Positions 1 to 5,020 of a stretch of DNA of 5,020 bases are shown here, piece by piece. The notes beneath the pieces are model-generated. The model worked only from the letters and a program-made list of their open reading frames with translations, ran no database searches and was not told the DNA's origin. A program made the translations under genes and the position numbers. This stretch comes from a bacterium (lineage in GTDB: Bacteria > Blakebacterota > Blakebacteria > Blakebacterales > Blakebacteraceae): the NCBI GenBank assembly GCA_025774615.1, contig JALGVQ010000192.1, positions 1-5,020 on the forward strand, in the 5' to 3' direction. Numbering within the stretch: the stretch's first letter is position 1; the number at the start of each line of letters is the position of its first letter.

Positions 1-713
1 ATGGTGTTGAATGTCTCCGCCAGCGCGCCGATCTCGTCGGTTGTCTCTACTTCCACCATTTCCCCGAAATCTCCCTCACCGATCCTCTGCGCGGCTGATC
101 TGAGACGCTCGATCGGGCTGATGATATTCTTTGCCAGGAGAGCAGCGACGAGTGAGCCGATGAGGATTGCCATGAAACCGAGTGCCACGATCCCCTGCCG
201 ACGCCGGCTCTCGCTCCTGCTGGTGTCTTCTTCGTGGAATCCCACCAACAGGGTGCCCAGGTGGGTATCGAAATCGATGACCGGTTTGACGAAGATCCTC
301 ATTTCCTGCCGGCGGTTGTCGGTCATGTGGAATGTCGCTGACGATCGGTTGTTGAGAGCTTCGATGACTTCGCTGCGCTCAAGGACAGGTTCCATCAAAA
401 CGCTATCAAGAGTGTAATGGACCCGCCTGCCGGATGAATCGAGAAAGGCGGCAAAATACGCTACATTCCGGCTCACCAGATCACCCAGTTCCTTGTCGAC
501 CTCAGTATCTTCACCTGTCTCCAGCAGTCTCACTACCCGCTGGACCGTCCCGGCCACGATCTCGTCAGTCCGGAGCAGGGCGGTGTCAGCCAGTTCTCTG
601 ATCTGGGAAAAACCGAGCAGTGTAAGGACACCACCCAGCAGAATCAGGATCAGAATGATCATGCCACTGATGACCTTGCCGCGCACGGAGTCGAAGAAGG
701 CCAATCGGATCAC
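1..713 (-). CDS. Two-TM HAMP-domain sensor protein, N-terminal part (C-terminus beyond left edge)
   Basis: Reading from 713 down to 3 gives 237 codons without a stop; the gene continues past the window edge. Residues about 13-35 form a first membrane segment (core IILILILLGGVL). Residues about 38-172 form a hydrophilic, presumably periplasmic, sensing region I cannot assign to a named family. Residues about 174-194 form a second membrane segment (core GFMAILIGSLVAALLA). A HAMP linker follows from about 195, with the typical ISPIERL, GDF and DEIGALAETFN elements. The start is GTG at 713: it overlaps the stop of the binding lipoprotein gene (GTGA) and has GAGGG at 724-720, six bases upstream. 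HAMP proteins of this shape end in a histidine kinase, chemoreceptor, cyclase, diguanylate cyclase or phosphatase module; the output domain is not visible, so the class is undetermined. Tight coupling to a solute-binding lipoprotein suggests that the two may act together in sensing, which is inference. Confidence 0.87.
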   Translation of the reverse strand, partial: MIRLAFFDSVRGKVISGMIILILILLGGVLTLLGFSQIRELADTALLRTDEIVAGTVQRVVRLLETGEDTEVDKELGDLVSRNVAYFAAFLDSSGRRVHYTLDSVLMEPVLERSEVIEALNNRSSATFHMTDNRRQEMRIFVKPVIDFDTHLGTLLVGFHEEDTSRSESRRRQGIVALGFMAILIGSLVAALLAKNIISPIERLRSAAQRIGEGDFGEMVEVETTDEIGALAETFNT

Positions 714-2275
714 TGCCAGCCCTCTTTCGAAACAGATGAATATGTCCAGTCAGCGAAGGGGCCGGGATCCAGTGACTCTTCGATGACTTCGGAAGACAGG
801 ATCAGGAAGGACTTCAGATCGGCCAGCGGGATACAGGGCACCTGGTCGGCGATCCATTCGACCGCCAACCGAAAATATTCCCGTCGCTCATCGTCATCCA
901 CGGAGGTATTCGCCCGTTCGAGGAGCTCGACGAACTTGTCTCCATCCATGCGGAAGAGCCCATTGCTGCCGTCCGGATTCGAACGCCCATAGATCTCATA
1001 CAGGAAACTGTACAGATCTCCATTATCCGTCGCATATCCATCGAGGTTGAGGTTCCATTCACCTTGCCTCAACAACTCATTATAGGTGCTGAATGACTCG
1101 ATAAATTCCTGCTTGATATCGAGACCGTACCCGATGAGTCTCTCCCTCAGGATATGGGATAATAGCTCGGTCTCCTCCGGATCGGTTGCCAGTGAGCGAA
1201 GGTACTTCAGTTGCCCTATCTCTCTGGTGATCTCCTGGCTGAAGAGATCAGCAGCGCGGTCGGGATTGATAGTCGGAGCCAGTGGGCCTCTGAGATCGGG
1301 CTCAAGACCTTCTCCGACGAAAAACCACATCACCTCCCCGGCCCGCCCCCAGCGCTCCTTGACGATCTCCCTGGTATCAAGAGCCATCGCCAGAGCACGG
1401 CGCATATTCACATCGCTGAATGGAGGCTGCTGGTTGTTGATGCCCAGCACCAGCCACCCACGACGCGTGACCACCTTCAGAACCATCCGGTCAGTAAGGT
1501 TGAACCGACCGTCTGATGAAACCCCGATGTTTTCCGCGATATCCGCTTTACCCTCATCAATCGCATCAAGTTTCTCATCATCGTCGAAGTATCTCGTGAA
1601 CCCGATCCTGTCAGGAATCGCCCGAGCACCCCAGTACCGGTTGTTCCTTTCAAGCAGGACCGTCCCCCGCCCCGGAGAGAACTGCTTTACCCGGTAGGGG
1701 CCGGTTCCGATCGGAGGAGTGTGGCCTGGTCCCTCACCCAACTCTTTTTTGATGATCGGAGCGAGGAATGGTGTCGTCAGCGTCCTCAGGAGCGAGTAAT
1801 GAGGCACCGGGATCACGATCTCCAGTGTCAGATCGTCGAGAGCCCGGATGGTGATCGGATGCCCCAGCTGATCGGATGAAGTTCCCACCCAGAGGAGACC
1901 CTCCTCCTCGAAATCGAGTATCCGCTGAAGACTGTACACCACATCGTATGCGGTCAATCTATCACCATCATGAAAGAGGACGTCCTCACGGAGATGGATG
2001 GTGAGACAGGTATACGAAGTATCATAGATATAATCATCCGCCAGATGCGGAAGGATCTCTCCCTCTTCATTCTGGCGGAAGAGGGATTCGTAGAGATGGG
2101 CTCCGATCCTCCTGCCGACCAGATCTCCTGAGAGCACCGGATCGATTTGCTCCGGCATTTCATCGACAGCTATACGGAGTGTCCTGTCGCCACTACCACA
2201 TCCGCTGAGCAGAAGGAGAGCACAGACATAGGACCAAGTACAACGGCGGACGGCGGATATCCTGAACGCTTTCAT
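710..2275 (-). CDS. ABC-type solute-binding lipoprotein, family 5 (OppA/DppA/NikA-like)
   Basis: The 521-residue product belongs to the extracytoplasmic solute-binding protein family 5 (SBP_bac_5), which binds oligopeptides, nickel or similar ligands for ABC importers or sensors. From ATG 2275 it starts MKAFR, has a basic n-region, a short hydrophobic stretch and the lipobox LSGC with the lipidated Cys at residue 26. Family signatures follow: LTIHLREDVLFHDGDR then LTAYDVVYS at about 91-115, IGTGPY at about 189-194, RNNRYWG at 210-216 and VNMRRALAMALD in the second half. The length is normal for the family and no frameshift is seen. An in-frame GTG at 2305 has AGGGA five bases upstream (2315-2311) and would add ten residues; ATG 2275 lacks a clear ribosome site but gives the more typical signal peptide, so the start is unresolved. 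No permease or ATPase gene lies beside it, and its stop overlaps the HAMP sensor start. The ligand is unknown. Confidence 0.94.
   Translation of the reverse strand: MKAFRISAVRRCTWSYVCALLLLSGCGSGDRTLRIAVDEMPEQIDPVLSGDLVGRRIGAHLYESLFRQNEEGEILPHLADDYIYDTSYTCLTIHLREDVLFHDGDRLTAYDVVYSLQRILDFEEEGLLWVGTSSDQLGHPITIRALDDLTLEIVIPVPHYSLLRTLTTPFLAPIIKKELGEGPGHTPPIGTGPYRVKQFSPGRGTVLLERNNRYWGARAIPDRIGFTRYFDDDEKLDAIDEGKADIAENIGVSSDGRFNLTDRMVLKVVTRRGWLVLGINNQQPPFSDVNMRRALAMALDTREIVKERWGRAGEVMWFFVGEGLEPDLRGPLAPTINPDRAADLFSQEITREIGQLKYLRSLATDPEETELLSHILRERLIGYGLDIKQEFIESFSTYNELLRQGEWNLNLDGYATDNGDLYSFLYEIYGRSNPDGSNGLFRMDGDKFVELLERANTSVDDDERREYFRLAVEWIADQVPCIPLADLKSFLILSSEVIEESLDPGPFADWTYSSVSKEGWQ
720..724 (-). 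promoter_or_regulatory. Ribosome binding site of the HAMP sensor, inside the end of the lipoprotein gene
   Basis: GAGGG lies six bases before the GTG at 713 and falls within the last codons of the upstream gene. Together with the four-base GTGA stop/start overlap it decides the sensor start and points to translational coupling. The next in-frame ATG (codon 18) lies inside the first membrane segment, which makes it an unlikely start. Confidence 0.6.
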
Positions 2276-2320: not shown

Positions 2321-2358
2321 ACCCCCACGGTTAAGGAGACAATCTCGACCGTGGGGGT
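2321..2358 (-). terminator. GC-rich hairpin with 11-bp perfect arms, terminator- or attenuator-like
   Basis: ACCCCCACGGT (2321-2331) and ACCGTGGGGGT (2348-2358) are perfect inverted copies, and the interior can add a 4-bp GAGA/TCTC stem (2336-2339 with 2343-2346) closed by a three-base loop. On the minus strand the stem runs into GGGGGTTTCAC, so the U-tract is only three bases; on the plus strand there is none. It sits just upstream of the lipoprotein gene (15 bases before GTG 2305, 45 before ATG 2275). It may be a weak or partial terminator that lowers expression of the lipoprotein and sensor, or an mRNA-stabilising or processing structure. The hairpin is certain; termination is not. Confidence 0.4.
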
Positions 2359-2404: not shown

Positions 2405-2506
2405 TCAGTTACAACTGACCCAGAGACGGCTCGCTGCACCGGTGCTCGCGACGAACGCTGCCATGAAACTGCCCAGTCTTAGTATGCGGTTTATCAATGT
2501 ACGCAT
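2405..2506 (-). CDS. Small peptide reading frame (33 aa) translationally coupled to the radical SAM gene
   Basis: The ATG at 2506-2504 shares its A with the TGA stop of the radical SAM gene (TGATG), a classic coupled arrangement, and AAGGGG lies about ten bases upstream. The predicted 33-residue peptide begins MRTLINRILRLGS, four arginines with no acidic residues. It continues with a small-residue, mildly hydrophobic stretch FMAAFVASTGAAS and ends RLWVSCN with a single Cys and Trp. This resembles a short signal or leader segment followed by a 7-9 residue tail; cleavage after TGA or GAA would be compatible with signal peptidase I. It could be a ribosomally made peptide substrate of the neighbouring enzyme, a secreted signal peptide, a small membrane-associated protein or a chance frame. 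I do not recognise a family. Its stop codon is inside an inverted repeat that begins the hairpin row. Confidence 0.5.
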   Translation of the reverse strand: MRTLINRILRLGSFMAAFVASTGAASRLWVSCN

Positions 2507-3987
2507 CAGGAGTTTACCCCTTTATCGATTGAGAACGTGGACGATTGTGTGGACGATTGTAGTGGAGCTTCGTAGTTAGTCAGGTCGATCCTCGCCTCTT
2601 CCGTACGACAGGAACGCCCGGAGAAAAAAATCCTGAACCGGTTTCTGATGTTTTTTCTGAACAATCTCAGGTGAGCCGGAAAGAGCTTGACGACACTTAC
2701 CCCGGGAAGGATGTACTTCAGGAGCAGATGGAACAGCTTCGAGAGATATCGCACCTTCCAGTCGTGGATGGTAAAGGTACAGTCGATATAGTCACCCTCG
2801 AGGCGTCCTTCAGAGGTCAGGCGGTCATGGAAGGGCGTACCTTTATAGACGATGACCCTGTTCTCTATCGAGAGGACATTCCCCCGGGGACCCCAGAGGT
2901 GCTGAGTGTCCTGAAGGAATGACAGATTCGCGCGTACATCCCCCATTTCAGTGTATGGATCGAAGAAGATGAGTCCCATAATGAAGTTGATACCGAGATC
3001 GTGGAGGATCTCCAGTGATCGTCTGTTTTCGGCGACCGAGGTGTGCTTGTCGCATGCGTCGAGTTGATTCTGACTGCCCGATTCAACGCCGACAAAGACC
3101 GATCGCAAGCCTGCAGCTTTCAGTGTTCCGAAGAGTTCCGGTTCGATGCTGTCGGCGCGGGCGAAGATCGAAAAGGGGACATCCCAGCCCCGGTCGATAA
3201 GGGCCTGAGCGAAGGACATCGTGTCCTCCCGGCCTTTCCTGCCCGGCCCGATAAACTGATCATCGAGGAATTTCATCTCCACTCCCGGGAATCGGGCGGT
3301 GAGTTCCTCCATCTCCCCGATCACGCTCTCAATCCCACGCTGTCGCCAGCCAGGCCCTCCCTGGGCACGGTAGAACGAGGCGATGGAACAGAACGCGCAA
3401 TTGGCGTAACATCCCCGCGCCCGCACCATGTGCAGGGTCCCACCCATCTCAATGATCCGCTGCGTATGATCCCTCACTGGCCTGGGCAGGGAATCGAGGT
3501 CCTTCTCGAGACAGCGAGCCGGATTGCGGCGTATATCGCTCCCCTCTCTGAAACTGATACCATCTACCTGCTCGGAATCGTCCCCTGATTCCCAGCGTTT
3601 CAGCAATTCCACCAGGGTAATGTCCCCTTCTCCGCGTACAACAACGTCGAGTTCGGGCCATTCCCGCAGCAGGATCTCGTCGTTGAAGGTCGGGAAATGT
3701 CCACCGACCACTATGCGACTTCGCAGTCCATCCTGCTTCAGTCTGCGAATAAGATGGAGGGTCCGGCGGGCGTTGTAGGAAAGAAGGCTGACACCCAGCA
3801 CATCGGGATCGCGTCTGATGATCTCCCGACCCAGACGCCGGTATGACCATCCCTCAAGATGCGTGAGGATGGTCTCGGTCTCGAATCCGGCCTGCCGTGT
3901 GGAAGCGGCGAGGGCGGCGATACCGATGTTCTCATACAGTTCGGGAACACCATCACGCTGTGCCGGATCAACCAGGAGTATGTTCAT
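2506..3987 (-). CDS. B12-binding-domain radical SAM protein (BchE-like architecture)
   Basis: This complete 493-residue protein starts MNILLVDPA. Residues about 1-135 are a Rossmann-like cobalamin-binding domain with DVLGVSLLS at 62-70 and VVGGHFPTF at 93-101; the classical DxHxxG histidine motif is not evident, as is common in radical SAM members. The radical SAM core follows with CYANCAFC, the CX3CX2C iron-sulfur ligands being C193, C197 and C200. KFLDDQF (239-245) and VGVESGSQ (299-306) are further family landmarks. The protein is expected to be cytoplasmic and to cleave S-adenosylmethionine to a radical; many relatives are methyltransferases or cyclases on diverse substrates, and none can be named here. 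Residues about 410-455 form a basic, hydrophobic C-terminal extension, and the extreme tail holds QSSTQSST. ATG 3987 is preceded by the G-rich GGGTGG about six bases upstream. The stop overlaps a small peptide frame, which makes that peptide a candidate substrate (inference). Confidence 0.95.
   Translation of the reverse strand: MNILLVDPAQRDGVPELYENIGIAALAASTRQAGFETETILTHLEGWSYRRLGREIIRRDPDVLGVSLLSYNARRTLHLIRRLKQDGLRSRIVVGGHFPTFNDEILLREWPELDVVVRGEGDITLVELLKRWESGDDSEQVDGISFREGSDIRRNPARCLEKDLDSLPRPVRDHTQRIIEMGGTLHMVRARGCYANCAFCSIASFYRAQGGPGWRQRGIESVIGEMEELTARFPGVEMKFLDDQFIGPGRKGREDTMSFAQALIDRGWDVPFSIFARADSIEPELFGTLKAAGLRSVFVGVESGSQNQLDACDKHTSVAENRRSLEILHDLGINFIMGLIFFDPYTEMGDVRANLSFLQDTQHLWGPRGNVLSIENRVIVYKGTPFHDRLTSEGRLEGDYIDCTFTIHDWKVRYLSKLFHLLLKYILPGVSVVKLFPAHLRLFRKNIRNRFRIFFSGRSCRTEEARIDLTNYEAPLQSSTQSSTFSIDKGVNS
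2537..2560. repeat. Perfect 12-bp tandem duplication inside the radical SAM gene tail
   Basis: GTGGACGATTGT occurs twice head to tail at 2537-2548 and 2549-2560. Because the unit is a multiple of three it keeps the frame and encodes the doubled tetrapeptide QSST QSST near the C-terminus of the radical SAM protein. Identity at the DNA level suggests a recent slippage duplication in a poorly constrained tail. Confidence 0.9.
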
Positions 3988-3993
3988 CAGCTT

Positions 3994-4017
3994 CCACCCC
4001 CCCTGGGGCTGCAGCCC
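3994..4017 (-). promoter_or_regulatory. Translation start region of the radical SAM gene: palindrome, G7 run and weak ribosome site
   Basis: On the minus strand the perfect palindrome GGGCTGCAGCCC (4006-4017) is followed by CA, a run of seven G (4003-3997) and TGG, six bases before ATG 3987. GGGTGG is the only plausible Shine-Dalgarno match. The CCC of the palindrome and the next C can pair with the G-run, so the ribosome site could be masked by local structure. Function is inferred. Confidence 0.35.
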
Positions 4018-4070
4018 GACTCATTGATTATCGATACCTGCTGGCTACCTGCCGGTCCGGACATCGGAGG

Positions 4071-4101
4071 GTATAAGCGCAACTCCCGTGCCAGCTGTCA
4101 C
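4071..4101 (-). promoter_or_regulatory. Weak sigma-70-like promoter candidate for the radical SAM operon
   Basis: GTGACA (4101-4096) matches TTGACA at five of six positions. TTATAC (4076-4071) is only a loose -10 match, and the spacer is 19 bases, longer than ideal. It would start transcription about 75-80 bases before the radical SAM ATG. This is a pattern match only. Confidence 0.18.
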
Positions 4102-4125
4102 CCGATACTACCACAAGCCAGCTGT
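4090..4125. repeat. Direct repeat pair GCCAGCTGT with 27-base period
   Basis: GCCAGCTGT occurs at 4090-4098 and 4117-4125 in the same orientation, followed by CA and TCA. The core CAGCTG is self-complementary, so each copy could be a half or full site for a regulator. The repeat is short and may be chance. Confidence 0.3.
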
Positions 4126-4176
4126 TCATGAGGTCTGAGGCCGGATATCACTATCTGAGGAGGAAAACAGGTCGCC

Positions 4177-4204
4177 CGGACTGCATGATACATAGTGCAG
4201 TCCG
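4177..4204. repeat. Inverted repeat with perfect 9-bp arms, operator- or hairpin-like
   Basis: CGGACTGCA (4177-4185) and TGCAGTCCG (4196-4204) are exact inverted copies separated by ten bases. The arm centres are 19 bases apart, close to two helical turns, as expected for a dimeric regulator. The minus-strand hexamer TATCAT (4190-4185), five of six to the -10 consensus, lies at the inner edge of one arm, but no good -35 is spaced correctly. As RNA it is a nine-pair hairpin with no adjoining U-tract on either strand. Confidence 0.55.
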
Positions 4205-4282
4205 AACAGAGAGAATTGCCCGGAAACAGCAATAAAGAGTTGATATCAGTGGTTAGATGGATCAGGCAGCTGGCGGGACATT

Positions 4283-4332
4283 CTGCACGACGTATTGTGC
4301 AGCACACCGTGGACAGAAACGGTGCACAATAC
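4283..4332 (-). repeat. Bulged 14-bp stem-loop after the cyclase stop, with a competing hairpin
   Basis: GTATTGTG (4292-4299) pairs with CACAATAC (4325-4332) and CACCGT (4305-4310) with ACGGTG (4319-4324), giving 8 plus 6 pairs separated by a five-base bulge (4300-4304) with an eight-base loop. CTGCAC (4283-4288) can instead pair with GTGCAG (4297-4302), which uses part of the same strand, so the two structures exclude each other. The large stem begins about 18 bases after the cyclase TAA (minus strand), where a 3'-end structure would be expected. There is no U-tract, so it is not a canonical intrinsic terminator. Confidence 0.5.
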
Positions 4333-4350
4333 AGCCCGATATGGCCACTA

Positions 4351-5020
4351 TTACTTCGTGGTCATGGTGAATACACCGTCCCACTCGTCAGAGGGCGGCT
4401 TGGAGAGATACTCCTGGCACCGGATCAGATTCATCCTGCTCGGTCCGTCGTCGGGATCCATCTGTACGAGTTCGTTGAAGATATCGAGCGCGTCTGCGAA
4501 TTCCCGTTCCCGGTACATCATGAGCCCCATTTCATATCGTTCCAGCATGCCCGAGAACCCGGCCGGGATCCCCACATCAGTTGTTTCGAGTACTTCAAAT
4601 ATACGAACCGGTTGTTCCTTTCCCTTCACCCGGATCATATCGAGCTCACGACAGATCATCTCACCACGGAGCTGTTCAAATGTCATCTCGCTGATGCAGA
4701 TGTTCGTGCCGTAAGCTTTGTTGGCACCCTCCAACCGTGATGCGAGGTTCACATTATCCCCCATCACCGTGTAGTCCATGACGTGCCGACTGCCCAGGTT
4801 TCCAATGAGCATGATACCCGTATTGAGCCCTATCCTGACATGGAGTTCCGGCCGCCCTTCAGCCTCCCATACAGGCCTCATTTCGGCCAGTTTACGCTGC
4901 ATCTGCAGAGCTGCCATGCAACCGCGCCAGGCGTGATCTTCATACGGAACCGGGGCCCCGAATTCGGCCATCATCGCATCACCATCATACTTGTCGATGA
5001 TGCCACCCTCATTGAACACG
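4351..5020 (-). CDS. Class III adenylate/guanylate cyclase, C-terminal part (N-terminus beyond right edge)
   Basis: The frame is open to the right edge; 223 codons are visible and the gene starts outside the window (GTG at 5019 is an internal Val). IIDKYDGDAMMAEFGAP carries one metal-binding Asp (GD, visible residue 14) and the Lys of DKY that usually contacts the adenine base. HVRIGLNTG and MDYTVMGDNVNLASRLEG follow, with Thr84 at the second base-selecting position and the transition-state Asn91 and Arg95. These residues favour cAMP synthesis. The first metal Asp lies outside the window. The tail (about 157-223) has a TPR-like segment YEMGLMMYREREFADALDIF and ends DEWDGVFTMTTK, a tail typical of CHASE2-type bacterial cyclases, so an N-terminal CHASE2 sensor is plausible but unseen. 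TAA is followed in frame by TAG. It precedes the radical SAM gene by 363 bases, so co-transcription is uncertain. Confidence 0.93.
   Translation of the reverse strand, partial: VFNEGGIIDKYDGDAMMAEFGAPVPYEDHAWRGCMAALQMQRKLAEMRPVWEAEGRPELHVRIGLNTGIMLIGNLGSRHVMDYTVMGDNVNLASRLEGANKAYGTNICISEMTFEQLRGEMICRELDMIRVKGKEQPVRIFEVLETTDVGIPAGFSGMLERYEMGLMMYREREFADALDIFNELVQMDPDDGPSRMNLIRCQEYLSKPPSDEWDGVFTMTTK

Follow-up and report, generated by a model that had tools for sequence, protein, structure and literature searches.

The window, i.e. the whole stretch of DNA that was analysed (5,020 nucleotides), is an entire contig from a bacterial phylum represented by four genomes in our collection. The following genes and features were identified along it:

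Positions 3 to 713, minus strand: N-terminal part of a membrane histidine kinase with a HAMP domain (53.6 bits), running off the contig
Positions 710 to 2275, minus strand: SBP_bac_5 solute-binding lipoprotein (PF00496, 191 bits; lipobox LLSGC), proposed co-sensor
Positions 2321 to 2358, minus strand: strong hairpin with a short run of T behind it, which may act as a terminator between the peptide and binding-protein genes (RNA fold of 2280-2404, z-score -6)
Positions 2405 to 2506, minus strand: gene of a 33-aa peptide, proposed signal precursor (kept in the sister species; two other phyla have short genes at the corresponding position)
Positions 2506 to 3987, minus strand: B12-binding radical SAM enzyme of 493 aa (PF02310 and PF04055 over cut-off; CxxxCxxC at residue 193)
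Positions 2517 to 2522, minus strand: AAGGGG, likely ribosome-binding site of the peptide gene, about ten bases upstream of its ATG
Positions 4078 to 4093, minus strand: sigma54 promoter-like site TGGCACGGGAGTTGCG, assigned to the radical SAM-peptide unit and matched at 16/16 bases by the sister species
Positions 4182 to 4199, no strand assigned: proximal enhancer-like palindrome (partner pair with the same spacing in sister locus L080)
Positions 4284 to 4301, no strand assigned: distal enhancer-like palindrome (counterpart TGCACAATATATTGTGCA in L080)

The minus-strand frame read from position 2506 to 2405 encodes MRTLINRILRLGSFMAAFVASTGAASRLWVSCN. Its ATG and the stop codon of the radical SAM gene share one A (TGATG), and the original prediction of a 33-aa frame coupled in this way and preceded by AAGGGG at about ten bases proved correct in its coordinates, with the minus strand as the coding one. 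The frame was compared with the sister species, i.e. the second species of the window's genus, known from a metagenome-assembled genome (G001, record JALGWK010000069.1, loci L033 and L080) in which the gene neighbourhood is the same as in the window. There, a peptide frame (MRNLMHRMINLTRFMAAFVASTGAASRVWISCN) lies directly behind the radical SAM stop (L033:4766-4867). Start, stop, length and frame are kept and 23 of the 33 residues are identical; within the last 20 codons 18 residues are identical, W29, C32 and N33 being retained. The ratio dN/dS is about 0.12 for codons 14-33, indicative of purifying selection, whereas dN is close to dS for codons 1-13, a contrast that points to a variable basic N-terminus followed by a constrained C-terminal part. 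None of the alternative frames of this stretch retains as many residues between the two species. Silent sites of the radical SAM gene are strongly diverged between them (dS 1.63, first 300 codons), and one serine of the peptide was retained through a change from AGC to TCA, in which all three bases differ. The recurrence of the frame with W, C and N kept and a low dN/dS, which had been proposed as a check, was therefore observed in the sister species, and neither loss nor breakage of the frame at the orthologous locus, either of which had been named as grounds for rejection, was seen there. Codons 18-22 (window 2441-2455, TTCGTCGCGAGCACC) are identical at every base in both species while the surrounding silent sites differ, which may reflect chance or a constraint at the nucleotide level.

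Short frames are common, and the possibility that this one arose by chance was weighed using dinucleotide shuffles of the intergenic region: a frame of 25-60 codons preceded by a ribosome-binding site appeared in 2.1% of them, and one with a Met-Arg start in 0.3%. A chance origin is countered by the sister species, which keeps the frame with its start, stop and length and shows a low dN/dS in the C-terminal part, and by the short coupled genes of two further phyla (see below). We regard it as extremely improbable overall and, for the window's genus, as refuted by the conservation of the frame with low dN/dS in the sister species. On this comparative evidence the 33-codon frame is a real, conserved protein-coding gene. 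The other two genomes of the family, at only 63-72% completeness, gave no match to the peptide or the enzyme. The peptide had no match in Pfam or NCBIfam, and searches against plasmids, phages and viral contigs returned either nothing or matches with E values of at least 4. With a peptide profile, only weak matches (best E 0.001) were found outside the genus among 386 diverse genomes, none resembling a coupled peptide gene. A weak second match in the window's own genome was attributed to chance, as it overlaps a KamA-like radical SAM gene on the opposite strand. Rfam returned nothing in the window and one tRNA in L033.

The enzyme encoded upstream of the peptide scored over the Pfam cut-off for both of its domains (B12-binding 69.5 bits, Radical_SAM 42.9 bits). 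Cysteines C193/C197/C200 are invariant in an alignment of 8 sequences, and the protein, having both domains and the CxxxCxxC motif, belongs to the B12-binding radical SAM enzymes. Its top NCBIfam model was rSAM_ApyD (119.8 bits, cut-off 750), almost tied with BchE (116.8 bits, cut-off 481), and all its matches to named B12-radical SAM equivalogs (ApyD, BchE, HpnR and others) fell far under the curated cut-offs. No RRE model was present among its Pfam and NCBIfam matches. In the sister species, the radical SAM gene (L033, within 3346-4759) carries a 47-nt gap relative to the window that breaks its frame, which counts against a signalling function. This gap may be an assembly error or a sign of decay; an assembly fault is possible since the protein beyond the gap is still 73% identical.

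Searching the 386 diverse genomes with the enzyme revealed two relatives that aligned over more than 90% of the query, one in G060 (about 44-45% identical) and one in G200 (39%). These genomes represent two further phyla, G060 being the sole genome of its phylum in the collection and G200 one of six. In G060, a gene for a 30-aa peptide (MRKMYRLISLVASIVFALCTIQRYPPLTAA), preceded by AAAGGAGGTGAAAGGA, lies ninety bases past the radical SAM stop; in G200, a gene for a 28-aa peptide (MRSLISFTRWFIRVMNGDATVRVSSFGL), preceded by AAAAGGAGGTAAAA, lies twelve bases past it. Each is the single short gene behind the enzyme, with a Met-Arg start and a Shine-Dalgarno site; the ribosome-binding position of the peptide reads GGAGGT in both genomes and CGGGGG in the sister species. 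A short gene was then defined by an ATG, a Shine-Dalgarno motif, a length of 20-60 codons and a distance of at most 150 bases from the radical SAM stop. By these criteria, which were fixed after the cassette loci had been seen and applied to the loci at hand as controls, a short gene was present at 4/4 cassette loci vs 2/49 other B12-radical SAM loci (Fisher p 5e-5 with all four cassette loci, 4.5e-4 with one genome per lineage). Neither of the two scoring control loci looks genuine, as one frame overlaps the next gene in another frame and the other begins 141 bases away. When shuffling was done region by region, such a frame appeared in 0.3-2.4% of cases. The presence of a short gene behind the relatives from two further phyla, compared with its rarity at the other loci, ties the peptide to this enzyme subfamily.

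The original prediction of a precursor peptide beside a radical SAM enzyme is supported by these data, i.e. by the frame conserved in the sister species and by the short genes that follow the relatives in the two further phyla. A conserved ribosomal precursor gene lies beside a candidate modifying enzyme, and by these defining features the pair can be classified, from sequence, as a B12-radical SAM enzyme beside a putative RiPP precursor. The peptides share no common core between phyla, having only length, Met-Arg start and net positive charge in common, and those of G060 and G200 are known from one genome each; both points weigh against a signalling role. Two further radical SAM relatives (36-38% identical), in G176 and G399, have neither such a peptide gene nor the binding protein and were placed outside the cassette. 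Repeating the diverse-genome search around G060 left the sample largely unchanged, and no cassette was added from the phyla of G060, G200, G176 and G316.

The cassette was found in four genomes only (the window's, the sister species, G060 and G200), which belong to three phyla. Genes for an SBP_bac_5 protein and a membrane histidine kinase follow the peptide gene in the same direction and order, and a gene for a sigma54-type response regulator comes next on those contigs that extend far enough. The CxxxCxxC motif is found in all three cassette enzymes. The full order, which unites putative signal-synthesis genes, sensor and regulator in one locus, was observed in the sister species and G060, and a partial one in the window and G200, where the contigs end. 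The G200 contig ends inside the kinase gene and leaves no regulator in view, which counts against a signalling role. The binding protein has a lipobox in the window, the sister species and G060, and a hydrophobic N-terminus without a lipobox in G200. The window kinase and its complete counterpart in the sister species share 49% identity; the HAMP domain was detected by Pfam in the window, the sister species and G060 (together with a Cache domain in the latter) and by eye in G200. The regulators of the sister species and G060 are 45% identical. Among the kinases that were compared by BLAST, each cassette kinase has its best match outside its genus in another cassette kinase. For the binding proteins, the best partner outside the genus is that of G060 in the case of the window, the sister species and G200; the G060 protein itself has E. 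coli DppA as best partner, just ahead of the G200 protein. In the tree, the cassette binding proteins did not group into a single clade, which speaks against signalling, although the tree is compatible with such a clade.

Among named solved structures, the best matches of the cassette binding proteins were dipeptide-, heme/AI-2- and oligopeptide-binding proteins; the predicted structure had a mean pLDDT of 50, too low for a fold search. The neighbouring genes examined in the sister species and G060 include no permease, i.e. the binding protein is not encoded there with the permease genes of an SBP_bac_5 ABC transport system. Near other radical SAM loci, no SBP_bac_5-like gene was found, the sole match being the sister species itself. 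No exporter or protease is encoded in the cassette, which counts against a secreted signal.

Alternatively, the peptide could be a RiPP precursor with a non-signalling role, as an antimicrobial, a metallophore or a redox cofactor; binding protein, kinase and regulator would then merely control its production by sensing something else, e.g. a nutrient. A conserved C-terminal part behind a variable N-terminus is closer to cofactor precursors of the PqqA kind than to the variable cores of antimicrobials. Family-5 proteins also bind nickel, heme and agrocinopines, a breadth that counts against a peptide signal, and binding-protein/kinase pairs without a radical SAM gene exist elsewhere in these genomes. 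Such a purpose is harder to reconcile with the linkage of peptide and binding-protein genes across three phyla, and neither a transporter nor an immunity gene was seen nearby; peptides that differ wholly between phyla are moreover incompatible with a shared cofactor. We consider this explanation unlikely. The larger unit, which the original prediction had not included, combines the binding protein and the kinase with a sigma54 regulator, a promoter that matches it and enhancer-like sites, and it points towards a signal more than towards an antibiotic or a cofactor.

The promoter-like site TGGCACGGGAGTTGCG upstream of the radical SAM gene is identical in the window and the sister species amid an otherwise diverged spacer. 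The two palindromes, of the form TGCACNATNNATNGTGCA, lie 101-102 bp apart and start about 106 and about 208 bases before it; we take them to resemble NtrC sites. A second set, composed of two palindromes 103 bp apart and a perfect sigma54 site, is present in the sister contig (L080:4749-5013) right behind the cassette regulator gene and before genes for a receiver and a second kinase, and is probably a second target of the cassette regulator. A further 750 kb of the window's genome, on other contigs, contained only one isolated palindrome of such quality, no pair and three sigma54 cores. A perfect sigma54 site also lies in G060, about 60 bases before the receiver gene that starts the operon and precedes the radical SAM gene. 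The G200 locus yielded no sigma54 site, which is a point against the signal interpretation. From the shared sites we infer autoinduction, i.e. that the regulator may control the radical SAM-peptide unit. An adenylate/guanylate cyclase gene precedes the cassette in both species (window 4351-5019; L080:11516-13117, there with CHASE2), outside the radical SAM-peptide sigma54 unit and on the far side of the sigma54 site.

Behind the peptide gene, G060 has a strong hairpin at the place equivalent to that of the window, so that radical SAM enzyme and peptide are probably co-transcribed, separately from the sensor genes. Since neither hairpin was listed in a consensus terminator scan (loop limit 8), both are predictions from folding alone. 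These hairpins would also suit an enzyme that makes a small-molecule or lipid signal, beside which the peptide would be a small accessory protein that regulates enzyme or kinase, or else a leader peptide tuning expression of the binding-protein gene; BchE and HpnR, which act on non-peptides, score about equal to ApyD. Conservation of the last 20 codons at the residue level nevertheless exceeds the needs of an attenuator, and the strong Shine-Dalgarno sites in G060 and G200 suggest that the product itself is wanted. The peptides of the other phyla are unrelated in sequence, which argues against an accessory protein. We judge this explanation to be quite improbable.

We somewhat favour the interpretation of the peptide as a signal precursor that would be modified by the enzyme, exported, sensed by the binding protein with the kinase and fed back through the sigma54 regulator; attenuator, cofactor-only and chance explanations were ranked lower. 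Under this signal model, the active regulator would cause the sigma54 promoter to transcribe the genes for enzyme and peptide. The enzyme would most likely modify the conserved C-terminal part FMAAFVASTGAASRxWxSCN (in the window peptide, FMAAFVASTGAASRLWVSCN); C-methylation, the commonest B12-radical SAM reaction, is our guess as to the chemistry. The modified product would leave the cytoplasm and be captured by the membrane-tethered family-5 binding protein, which would act as co-sensor with the adjoining histidine kinase and alter its activity. The kinase would signal to the sigma54 response regulator encoded next, and the regulator would act via the paired palindromes upstream of the radical SAM-peptide unit on its sigma54 promoter, closing a positive feedback loop. 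More tentatively, the cassette may represent a new class of peptide autoinduction in uncultivated bacteria, in which a lineage-specific B12-radical SAM-modified peptide would be read by a histidine kinase and its family-5 binding protein and would feed back via a sigma54 enhancer-binding regulator.

Several known systems share parts of this arrangement. In the aminopyruvatide RiPP pathway, the B12-radical SAM enzyme ApyD beta-methylates the penultimate Tyr of ApyA, near its C-terminus (PMC10635010). The cassette likewise has a B12-binding radical SAM enzyme beside a small precursor and a proposed modification near the peptide C-terminus, but its ApyD score is far below the cut-off and signalling genes replace the P450, MNIO, methyltransferase and separate RRE protein. 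Streptococcal RaS-RiPPs (streptide, tryglysin) are under Rgg/SHP quorum sensing, in which the pheromone SHP is a separate peptide acting through Rgg regulators (PMC13361665). They also link radical SAM-modified small peptides to cell-cell signalling, whereas in our model the sensor, a binding protein with a kinase, would have the modified peptide itself as ligand. LuxP-LuxQ is an example of a binding protein working with a histidine kinase (PMC8534201), as is proposed here; adjacent genes for a solute-binding protein and a kinase are not always functionally linked (PMC11113362), which counts against a signalling role. The cassette differs from LuxP/LuxQ by its SBP_bac_5 protein and by the adjoining dedicated peptide and putative modifying enzyme. 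LuxP, which senses AI-2, is a member of a different family of binding proteins. The ComQ-ComX-ComP-ComA locus unites modifying enzyme, kinase and regulator; it has a prenyltransferase, no binding protein and a LuxR-type regulator. ComX of Bacillus is described in PMC5331326 as a modified peptide pheromone with an isoprenylated Trp. The cassette resembles that locus in combining a modified peptide pheromone, as proposed, with its enzyme, kinase and regulator, and differs in its radical SAM enzyme instead of a prenyltransferase, its additional binding protein and its sigma54 instead of LuxR-type regulator. Among the results listed by literature searches of open-licence papers, no title or abstract described such a gene combination; as evidence of novelty this is weak.

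Most known modified peptide pheromones come from Gram-positive bacteria. If the proposed model is true, B12-radical SAM chemistry yields peptide signals in poorly sampled phyla, and a ligand class is suggested for the transporter-less family-5 binding proteins beside histidine kinases, of which these genomes hold several more. The conserved cassette also provides a genome-mining rule for short precursor genes, which tend to escape annotation, and can be tested directly through co-expression. Further SBP_bac_5 genes (L101, L104, L105, L106), from G060 and the genus of the window, directly precede genes for kinase-like membrane sensors, which suggests a wider class of family-5 binding-protein/kinase sensors. 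In the window's own genome, a different radical SAM-like gene lies behind another SBP_bac_5 gene (L098).
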